Source of the DNA: an uncultured Prevotellaceae bacterium
GTDB taxonomy: Bacteria > Bacteroidota > Bacteroidia > Bacteroidales > Bacteroidaceae
NCBI GenBank assembly: GCA_945831805.1
Contig: CAMADY010000010.1
Location: forward strand, 1-48,954
DNA: 48,954 nt
Reading direction: 5' to 3'
A program made the position numbers and the translations under genes. Below the pieces are notes generated by a model. It worked only from the letters and a program-made list of their open reading frames with translations. It ran no database searches and had not been told where the DNA came from. This document shows, piece after piece, positions 6,701-31,237 of the stretch (positions are counted from its first letter, which is position 1; the number at the start of each line of letters is the position of its first letter).

Positions 6701-6731
6701 CAAAGTTAATATTATTTTCTGAATTACGCAA
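6701..6731 (-). promoter_or_regulatory. Promoter of the wza-wzc-galE-PIN gene run
   Basis: Minus strand TTG (6729-6731) - 20 bp - TAACTTTG (6701-6708). Confidence 0.7.
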
Positions 6732-6791: not shown

Positions 6792-6822
6792 TTGCGATTT
6801 TTCTTAAAAAGTAGTAATTTTG
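6792..6822 (+). promoter_or_regulatory. Promoter reading into the 6901 short ORF
   Basis: TTG (6792-6794) - 20 bp - TAATTTTG (6815-6822). Confidence 0.7.
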
Positions 6823-18689: not shown

Positions 18690-20534
18690 ATGAAAACTAC
18701 ATTACTGACTACACTTCTACTGACGGCCACACTCTCCCTCTCCGCACAGAACAAGAAGGAGCAGGGCGACATCTGGCTCGACATCAACGGCGTGAGAGAC
18801 CTTACCGCCGATTCCATTGACATCGCTAATCAGGCACGTCCTGTTCCTGGCTCTTCACGTAAGGGCAACAACCCTGTACTCTTCCTCGTCGGCAACTCTA
18901 CCATGCGCACTGGTACGCGCGGCAATGGAGACAACGGACAGTGGGGATGGGGATACTATGCCCACGAGTATTTCGATGAGAGCAAGATTACCGTTGAGAA
19001 CCATGCACTCGGTGGCACATCGCCACGTACCTTCTACAAGTCTCCAGAGCTATGGCGCAGAACCCTCAAGGGTGTACAGAAGGGCGACTACGTATTCCTT
19101 GAGCTCGGTCACAACGACAATATGCCTATCGACTCCATTCGTGCACGTTCAAGCTACAAGCCTCACGGCACCATTGCTGTCAGCAGCGACTCTGTCATTA
19201 TATTTAATAAGGTGACACACCGTCAGGATACTGTCTATACCTTCGGTGGCTACACACGACGCTTCATCAACGAGGTGCGTGCCAAGGGTGCTACACCTGT
19301 GCTCTTCACGCTCACACCACGTAATGCATACGAGAAGGACGGCAAGACCATCCAGCGCAAGCTTCACGACTTCACGCCTGCCATCAAGGCTGTAGGTAAC
19401 GAGATGGGCGTTCTCGTCATCGACCTCAACGACATCTCCGCTACGAAGCTTGAGCAATATGGTCCATGGAAGACCGACTACCACTTCTACATCGACAAGA
19501 TTCACTCCTCTGCTTTCGGTGCACGCATGAATGCTGAATCTGCATGCGAAGGACTCATCAAGGCTGATCTCGATGACGTCCCTACCCTTTCACGCGATGA
19601 GCGCCAGAGCCTGAAGCTGCTCCAGAGCTATCTCATCAAGGAGAAGGTGCTGCCAGACTATGAGGAGAAACTCCTGGCATGGGAACCACAGAACTACGAC
19701 TCCAAGGGCAACGTCATCGCCAAGACGAAGACTGCAGAGGAGAAGAAGCAGAAGACACGCATTTTCTTCTGCGGAGACTCTACCGGCAAGAACGAGGACA
19801 AGAAACCTGACGGCATGTGGGGATGGGGCTCACAGGCATACACCGTATTCGATGAGGCAAAGTGTACCTTCATCAACTGTGCAAAAGCTGGTCGCTCTAC
19901 ACGCACATTCCTCCTTGAAGATCGTTGGGAAGAGGTTTATCGCATACTCCGCCCAGGCGACTACGTTCTCCTCCAGTTCGGCCACAACGACATCGGCGGC
20001 ATCGATAAGGACAAGGAGCGCGGTGTAATCCCTGCTGCCAAGGACACCTCAAAGGTTTTCCACCTCAAGTCCAACGGCAAGAACCTCGTTGTATATTCAT
20101 TCGGATGGTACATCCACAAGATGATTCAGGATTGTAAGGAGAAGGGCGCTATACCTGTAGTCCTTTCATTCACACCACGCAACGAGTGGCACACCGGTAA
20201 GGGCGAGCTGAAGGGTAAGTTCTATCCTGTAAAGGAAGAAGCCGGCAAACAGTACATCGAGCGCCGTTCTGACAAGTATATCGTAGAATGGGACAAGCAG
20301 GTTGCCGATGCAAACGGTGCTGAGTTCGTTGACGTTCACAACATCTCTGCAGACTCCCTCGACAAACTTTTCTCCAAGTGCAAGACTGCGGAGGAGGCAA
20401 AGCAGAAGGCTAACGAGTATTTCAATCACGATCACACCCACACTTCCCTCAAGGGTGCTCGCAACAATGCACTGAGCCTTGCGAAAGGCCTGCGCGCCAT
20501 CAATTCACCACTCGTACAGTATCTAAAGAAGTAA
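18690..20534 (+). CDS. Secreted tandem SGNH/GDSL hydrolase (rhamnogalacturonan acetylesterase-like)
   Basis: Two copies of the fold: GNSTM/GHND/DKIHSSAFGA and GDSTG/GHND/HDHTHTSLKGA. Confidence 0.88.
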   Translation: MKTTLLTTLLLTATLSLSAQNKKEQGDIWLDINGVRDLTADSIDIANQARPVPGSSRKGNNPVLFLVGNSTMRTGTRGNGDNGQWGWGYYAHEYFDESKITVENHALGGTSPRTFYKSPELWRRTLKGVQKGDYVFLELGHNDNMPIDSIRARSSYKPHGTIAVSSDSVIIFNKVTHRQDTVYTFGGYTRRFINEVRAKGATPVLFTLTPRNAYEKDGKTIQRKLHDFTPAIKAVGNEMGVLVIDLNDISATKLEQYGPWKTDYHFYIDKIHSSAFGARMNAESACEGLIKADLDDVPTLSRDERQSLKLLQSYLIKEKVLPDYEEKLLAWEPQNYDSKGNVIAKTKTAEEKKQKTRIFFCGDSTGKNEDKKPDGMWGWGSQAYTVFDEAKCTFINCAKAGRSTRTFLLEDRWEEVYRILRPGDYVLLQFGHNDIGGIDKDKERGVIPAAKDTSKVFHLKSNGKNLVVYSFGWYIHKMIQDCKEKGAIPVVLSFTPRNEWHTGKGELKGKFYPVKEEAGKQYIERRSDKYIVEWDKQVADANGAEFVDVHNISADSLDKLFSKCKTAEEAKQKANEYFNHDHTHTSLKGARNNALSLAKGLRAINSPLVQYLKK

Positions 20535-20567: not shown

Positions 20568-20607
20568 AAATTCCCAATCACAGCGATAGTGTCGTGATTG
20601 GGAATTT
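20568..20607 (+). terminator. Intrinsic-terminator-like hairpin after the SGNH hydrolase gene
   Basis: Perfect 14-bp stem AAATTCCCAATCAC / GTGATTGGGAATTT. Confidence 0.75.
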
Positions 20608-20609
20608 CT

Positions 20610-20687
20610 CGTTATATGATGATAATGAAGTGTTTCGTTATATGATGTTAATGAGTACTTTCGGTTTATGATGAGAATAAAGGGTCT
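20610..20687. repeat. Degenerate 26-bp tandem repeat, 3 copies
   Basis: CGTTATATGATGATAATGAAGTGTTT / CGTTATATGATGTTAATGAGTACTTT / CGGTTTATGATGAGAATAAAGGGTCT. Confidence 0.75.
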
Positions 20688-20746
20688 TCATAATAAGATA
20701 CATTGGTAAATCTCGTTATTAGGAGATTACCAAATTGTTAACGCAC

Positions 20747-20810
20747 AAAAAAAAGGGCTCCGCTGAGCCCCAATCTTTGTTAACCTTAAATCTAATACTA
20801 TGAAAAACAC
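20747..20810 (-). ncRNA. Putative small RNA (~65 nt), possibly Bacteroidales-1-like; family assignment tentative
   Basis: Own -33/-7 promoter immediately upstream and GGGCTCAGCGGAGCCCTTTTTTTT terminator at the 3' end; no ORF. Confidence 0.7.
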
Positions 20811-20814
20811 GTTG

Positions 20815-20845
20815 CAAAGATACGGAGTTTTTGCGATACCTGCAA
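20815..20845 (-). promoter_or_regulatory. Promoter of the small RNA
   Basis: Minus strand TTG (20843-20845) - 20 bp - TATCTTTG (20815-20822). Confidence 0.75.
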
Positions 20846-20935
20846 GTTTTTTATCGATTATTTTTCGTTTTTTTGTGGAATAATTGATAAATATCAATCG
20901 AACCGTTGTGTTTCAACTGTTTTTTATTGATTTTG

Positions 20936-21802
20936 TCATATTTCAATGACTTGTCCGTCGTATGCGAAATGGAAGCCGTAGGGCAGGCGCCTGTTGGCAA
21001 GTTCGTGAGTGCCGATGTCGTGGGTGACGTGGATGAAGTAGGTTTGCTTAGCCCCTACCCTAAGCGCAAACTCAACGGCGTCGGTAACGAGCTGATGGCT
21101 ATGATGTTCCTTCTCAAAGCGCAATGCATTGATGATGAGTGTCTCTACGCCGTGCAGCAAAGCTTCGTTCGTCTTGTCTATGGACTTCATATCGGTAATA
21201 TACGCCAGCTTACCGAAGCGGTAGCCGAGGATTGGTAACTTGCCATGCATCACGCGTATCGGCAAAACTTCCAATTCGTCATCTGCAGCAGGTACGGTGA
21301 CGGTTGTCGGCTCACGGTACAGCAAACCATTAAGCGTTGCGCCACTTGGTGGCATCTGCGCCTTGATCGGTTGCGGACGTCTGATGTAGAATGGCTCTCC
21401 CGCCTCTATACTGTGAAGTTTGAGATGCGGTACGCCTGGGTACAGATTCGTGCGGAAGCAGTATGGCATCGTCTGATGCAGCCCGTCGATGACGTCGCTC
21501 TGTGCATAGACGTCAACATCGCCGAACATACAGAATGGTCGCAGGTCGTCGATACCTGCCACGTGGTCATAATGGATGTGGGTTATCAGCACGCCGTCGA
21601 ACTTTCCAAACGGCTGCGGAAGTGTCTGGCTACGGAAGTCCGGTCCGCAGTCGATGAGCACACGAAGACCTCCCTCCGTCTCAAGAATGGCAGAGCTGCG
21701 GTAGCGTTTGTCGCGAGGTTCGCTGCTTCGGCACACCTCACACTGACAACCAATAGCAGGCACACCGATGGATGTTCCTGTACCAAGAAATGTAAGTTTC
21801 AT
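20936..21802 (-). CDS. MBL-fold metallohydrolase (PhnP-like)
   Basis: LGTGTSIGVPAIGCQCEVC, THIHYDHVAGIDDLR, YFIHVTHDIG. Confidence 0.9.
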   Translation of the reverse strand: MKLTFLGTGTSIGVPAIGCQCEVCRSSEPRDKRYRSSAILETEGGLRVLIDCGPDFRSQTLPQPFGKFDGVLITHIHYDHVAGIDDLRPFCMFGDVDVYAQSDVIDGLHQTMPYCFRTNLYPGVPHLKLHSIEAGEPFYIRRPQPIKAQMPPSGATLNGLLYREPTTVTVPAADDELEVLPIRVMHGKLPILGYRFGKLAYITDMKSIDKTNEALLHGVETLIINALRFEKEHHSHQLVTDAVEFALRVGAKQTYFIHVTHDIGTHELANRRLPYGFHFAYDGQVIEI

Positions 21803-31157: not shown

Positions 31158-31188
31158 CAAAGTTACAAAGTTTTATTTGAATATACAA
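31158..31188 (-). promoter_or_regulatory. Promoter of the GH35 gene
   Basis: Minus strand TTG (31186-31188) - 20 bp - TAACTTTG (31158-31165). Confidence 0.75.
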
Positions 31189-31205: not shown

Positions 31206-31237
31206 TTTGCATATTCCGAAAAAAATACATACCTTTG
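31206..31237 (+). promoter_or_regulatory. Promoter of carB
   Basis: TTTG (31206-31209) - 20 bp - TACCTTTG (31230-31237). Confidence 0.8.

Follow-up and report, generated by a model that had tools for sequence, protein, structure and literature searches.

FopS, the "family of paralogous sRNAs" (Rfam RF04319, BTncRNA_FopS), was first described from Bacteroides, within the RbpB circuit for polysaccharide use. The 14 FopS sRNAs of Bacteroides thetaiotaomicron, bile-responsive RNAs of ∼65–70 nt, attach to PUL mRNAs around the start codon of the operon's leading gene, which is mostly susC, and keep that gene from being translated (PMC11697453). Start-codon pairing with a translational block is reported for FopS-10 of this species (PMC11697453), and the repression is lifted when FopS is bound by RbpB, a protein of the RRM-1 type (PMC11697453). 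The family is described as conserved in Bacteroidaceae, with 12–15 copies in named species and one phage occurrence noted; Prevotella is unmentioned in the main text of that study (PMC11697453).

The window analyzed here is the whole stretch of 48,954 nucleotides from an uncultured Prevotellaceae bacterium, and it belongs to a genome assembly (G000) of 2.40 Mb that is 82% complete. The preliminary description of this DNA had read a stand-alone small RNA on its minus strand and had tentatively named it a Bacteroidales-1 RNA. The Rfam search that it proposed (cmscan, curated cut-offs) gives a single match at this place, to RF04319 at 20810–20744 on the minus strand, with 75.4 bits (cut-off 56; E = 2e-9) and over model positions 1–71 of 71, that is, the full length. 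The name Bacteroidales-1 was wrong, because FopS is what cmscan gives here and Bacteroidales-1 is found only on another contig of the genome, where its sole match scores 122 bits (C35:19629–19873, L361). The two RNAs share a general look, both being intergenic stand-alone RNAs of Bacteroidales with a Bacteroidota promoter, but they match in neither sequence nor structure: the RF01693 model is 179 nt long against ∼65 nt for the RNA of the window, and it has no match in 20600–21000, even at E ≤ 10. There is practically no chance that the locus is a Bacteroidales-1 RNA.

Two further families are sub-threshold relatives with a common seed. GibS (RF04182) has R1 as its 5′ seed and reaches 41 bits at the locus, far below its cut-off of 115, with the match limited to R1 on the 5′ side and to the T run. 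Its Rfam model is longer, at ∼142 nt, and it differs in its promoter and in carrying a second seed, R2, which the window RNA lacks. BTnc231 reaches 37.7 bits (cut-off 80.4). The minus-strand element is a member of FopS, and we hold it with high confidence to be the FopS small RNA gene that is kept, as an orthologue, behind an MBL-fold gene in Prevotella.

Like FopS-01 to FopS-14 of B. thetaiotaomicron, the RNA has a single-stranded 5′ part, with the same seed, followed by a terminator hairpin, and like them it has a TAnnTTTG promoter, a length near 65–70 nt, and paralogs in the same genome. From 20845 to 20744, the minus strand reads TTGCAGGTATCGCAAAAACTCCGTATCTTTG (the promoter, 20845–20815), then CAAC, then GTGTTTTTCATAGTATTAGATTTAAGGTTAACAAAGATTGGGGCTCAGCGGAGCCCTTTTTTTT (the transcript, 20810–20747). 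The TTG-N20 promoter claimed previously is in place, with the −33 TTG at 20845–20843 and the −7 box, TATCTTTG, at 20822–20815; it is of the sigma-ABfr type that goes with FopS. Its core is conserved among homologs: 71/72 copies keep the TA (−12/−11) of the −7 box and 71–72/72 the TTTG (−8 to −5). A TTG-like block near −34 recurs across these 72 distinct copies, and the positions between and before the boxes are free to vary. The window contains six TTG-N20-TAnnTTTG matches, where 0.39 would be expected. The five other exact matches lie at 88–118, 6701–6731, 6792–6822, 31158–31188, and 31207–31237, and two divergent promoter pairs can be seen among the window matches, 6701/6792 and 31158/31207.

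The 5′ end given by the Rfam match, 20810, lies 4 nt past the −7 box; the predicted transcript therefore has ∼64–67 nt (20744–20810), and its first nucleotide would be the G of GTGTTTTT. The 5′ seed, GTGTTTTTCATAGTATTAGATTTAAGGTTAA, occupies 20780–20810 on the same strand. It corresponds to the R1/R1′ region, without R2, and is near-invariant in the alignments of homologs (22 aligned copies); its complement, ACTATGAAAAACAC, includes a start codon. In the minimum-energy fold there are weak pairs within the seed, and the strong stem is the terminator. The latter (20747–20771, minus strand) had been described as a 6-bp GC stem followed by Ts, and the terminator scan gives GGGGCTC-AGCG-GAGCCCT, a stem of seven pairs including one G-U (six without it) around a 4-nt loop, then the T run. 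The scan finds two sites in the region, which are the same stem on opposite strands, with 0.3 expected. This stem and its AGCG loop differ from the Rfam FopS consensus.

The locus had also been said to contain no ORF. This holds as far as coding is concerned: a 27-aa plus-strand ORF antisense to the RNA (MKNTLQRYGVFA...) is conserved only where it is the complement of the seed and the promoter. In this genome a reading frame with a GTG start also runs uninterrupted across the sRNA; it can be regarded as non-coding because it is closed in 23/65 homologs and its peptide is not conserved. The observations of the preliminary description are confirmed and its interpretation is partly supported, since the stand-alone intergenic RNA, with its Bacteroidota-type promoter and intrinsic terminator, carries signals that are conserved in related genomes and its family assignment was mistaken. 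From these signals, the gene is expected to be expressed in the present organism as a self-terminating RNA of ∼65 nt from its own promoter.

FopS is present in 34 of the 36 genomes of the same genus, with one to five copies each, against the 12–15 of named Bacteroides species, and in 56 of 247 genomes sampled across the order. The 31-nt seed is near-invariant among homologs; in most copies it varies at no more than a single A/G site, apart from a TA insertion that goes with the type. Type A, to which the window copy belongs, is GATTTAAGG, usually with the loop AGCG or GGCG. Type B is GATTATTAAGG with the terminator GTCGTGAGAC and accounts for 18 of the 71 classified copies. The terminator arms of type A copies show compensatory changes: among 22 distinct arm pairs of copies with an AGCG or GGCG loop (pairs 2–6 scored), 99% of cells pair in register, against 45–54% when slid by one. 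Within the genome under study, a second FopS, of type B, lies at C104:5273–5330 (L002); it scores 47 bits, below the RF04319 cut-off, because the contig end truncates it. A weak, shortened FopS-like element, in which the seed runs straight into the terminator, is found at C41:18603–18666 (L003). These are paralogs in the same genome, as expected of FopS, at a copy number far below that of Bacteroides. A weak signal on C39, considered as a fourth copy, was rejected because it marks where an M15 peptidase gene starts, and it counts as a predicted target instead.

The sRNA lies in a 401-bp gap between a two-domain GDSL-type lipase/esterase gene (18690–20534, plus strand; Pfam PF13472) and the gene of a PRK02113-like MBL-fold metallo-hydrolase (20936–21802, minus strand; Pfam Lactamase_B_2, with NCBIfam NF002553 below cut-off). 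The earlier placement between gene ends was right, because these two flanking genes converge. Positions 1–55 of the window (minus strand) hold a partial tRNA (Rfam RF00005) cut off at the window and contig edge. The MBL-fold gene is the upstream neighbor on the same strand, 125 nt from FopS, and this neighborhood is conserved: in 24 of 80 named loci, from Prevotella and Hoylesella, FopS lies 71–194 nt past the MBL stop, always on the same strand. These include Prevotella sp. ne3005, Prevotella sp. BV3P1, and Hoylesella buccalis, and the best-matching named loci of the MBL protein are from Prevotella and Prevotellaceae, which marks the genome as that of a Prevotella-like member of Bacteroidales. 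This setting, which differs from that of Bacteroides FopS, could be read otherwise, with the RNA being mainly a 3′-UTR fragment or terminator of the MBL-fold gene, released by processing, rather than an independent gene. The constant same-strand position in the 24 loci would fit such an origin, and one FopS of B. thetaiotaomicron does derive from a 3′-UTR (PMC11697453). However, the TAnnTTTG core stands 4 nt before the RNA in 71–72 of 72 copies, also at loci with other flanks, the sequence between the conserved parts varies, and the seed is conserved far beyond the needs of a terminator. A processed fragment is thus very improbable.

Binding and antagonism by RbpB are properties of B. thetaiotaomicron; membership in the Rfam family does not require RbpB, and such a partner was not found here. 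No RRM_1 (PF00076) protein is detected in the 82% complete assembly, nor in 34 of the 36 genomes of the genus, G024 and G030 being the two that have one. The search is sensitive, as it finds RRM_1 in 170 of the 247 genomes of the order. Assembly gaps do not account for the absence, because, of the 21 genomes of the genus with a completeness of 90% or more, all carry FopS and 19 lack RRM_1. In a cross-tabulation over the order, 23 of 56 FopS carriers have no RRM_1, with all sampled FopS carriers without it in families f22, f26, f42, f65, f102, and f103. Hfq was considered as a substitute partner and discarded, being absent from 36/36 genomes of the genus. Since no RRM protein was found, regulation would need to act without one, and the co-occurrence pattern suggests that FopS may be independent of an RNA-binding partner.

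By homology to FopS-10, the single-stranded seed would pair in trans with the translation-start regions of mRNAs and keep ribosomes from loading at the gene that opens an operon. A simple duplex model, which takes no account of site accessibility, was run on 663 gene starts in ∼925 kb of the same genome (∼39% of it), a sample in which each of the 16 SusC-model matches is represented by its locus. A single start is an outlier, that of an M15 peptidase gene on C39, with −32.8 kcal/mol for the window seed and −39.6 for the consensus seed of type B. The best values with shuffled seeds are −18 to −24 kcal/mol, and all other gene starts are at background (mean over all starts, ∼−10.7). The predicted duplex of the window sRNA has ∼28 paired nucleotides with a 2-nt bulge and covers the AUG, and the terminator hairpin is retained in the cofold. 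The M15 gene is the first of a cluster in which it is followed by HU-like and smalltalk-like genes (C39:13300–14260; minus strand of L004, 439–1510; L289), the NCBIfam match of the smalltalk-like protein being below cut-off. The strongest predicted target in this genome is the start codon of this phage-like cell-wall gene set. In its two closest M15 orthologs (66–68% identical) the start pairs with −32.4 and −34.7 kcal/mol; conservation of the pairing is confined to these closest orthologs, as other M15 homologs are mostly without it. One genome, G001, has the M15 site and no detected FopS.

Related genomes provide further candidate sites. The 18-nt complement of the seed, with up to two mismatches, occurs 129 times in the 36 genomes of the genus. 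When tallied against the listing of FopS copies, ∼84 of these are the FopS genes themselves, and the remaining ∼45 compare with 11 for the reversed control pattern, an excess of about fourfold. Among 38 fetched non-FopS complements, ∼20 directly precede an HU-HIG or a smalltalk gene; ten of ten tested candidates are HU-HIG by Pfam, and one is smalltalk by NCBIfam. In these genomes, the predicted targets are HU-HIG and smalltalk leaders. The multicopy HU-HIG/smalltalk cassettes of the genus (L235–L253, L265, L266, L269) often have a leader in common, in which a hairpin such as gcggccacccgatgtagctggccgc is followed by ATCTAATACCATGAAAAACAC and, ∼10–20 nt further, by the HU start. That FopS genes sit beside their own putative target operons was rejected on a tblastn search of the fetched loci: near FopS copies, it finds no HU, M15, or smalltalk gene other than one HU-like hit in a viral locus (L300) and the C39 target itself.

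Best predicted targets of this kind set the present FopS apart from that of Bacteroides, and FopS might instead act mainly on susC-like transporters, as it does there, the complementarity to M15/HU/smalltalk starts being incidental, for instance through a start leader common to multicopy cassettes. The published targets are PUL susC genes (PMC11697453), weak pairing is possible for real sRNA targets, and the pairing site looks like a generic A-rich start region of Bacteroidota. Furthermore, SusC targets may be partly absent from the data, because ∼39% of the genome was scanned and the assembly is 82% complete. Against this, the SusC-model starts of the genome give −9 to −15 kcal/mol in a direct check, near the overall mean, and none stands out in the scan, whereas near-exact 18-nt complements, many of them before HU-HIG and smalltalk genes, exceed the reversed control. 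We regard the susC reading as rather unlikely, though far from negligible. The assignment of M15/HU-like/smalltalk operons as targets is itself tentative and, to our judgment, somewhat short of an even chance; repression of these operons by FopS is a prediction.

The FopS seed is also found in 39 stretches of viral contigs (L292–L330), some of which may be prophages with host flanks. A TAnnTTTG box stands at the right distance in 15 of the 39, and several score above the RF04319 cut-off. Some have a full promoter and terminator, and in others the seed is joined to a different 3′ part, such as the GTCCGTGAGGAT hairpins of L295, L307, and L309. The copy in L292, which is sub-threshold for RF04319, lies directly behind a tRNA gene, as perhaps does that of L293.

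It is conceivable, if rather doubtful at present, that in Prevotella and several other lineages of Bacteroidales FopS acts without its known RNA-binding partner and that its main conserved job is to silence mobile-element-like M15/HU-HIG/smalltalk operons at their start codons, rather than to control sugar importers. If so, these bacteria would use an RNA to keep their resident phage-like cell-wall genes in check, and the viral contigs that bear FopS may be part of the same silencing circuit. The maintenance of FopS across a genus that is almost without RRM proteins, and without Hfq, suggests that this sRNA family does not depend on a partner of the RbpB type. The complementarity to HU-HIG, smalltalk, and M15 genes offers a concrete new class of candidate targets and a first handle on such multicopy operons.
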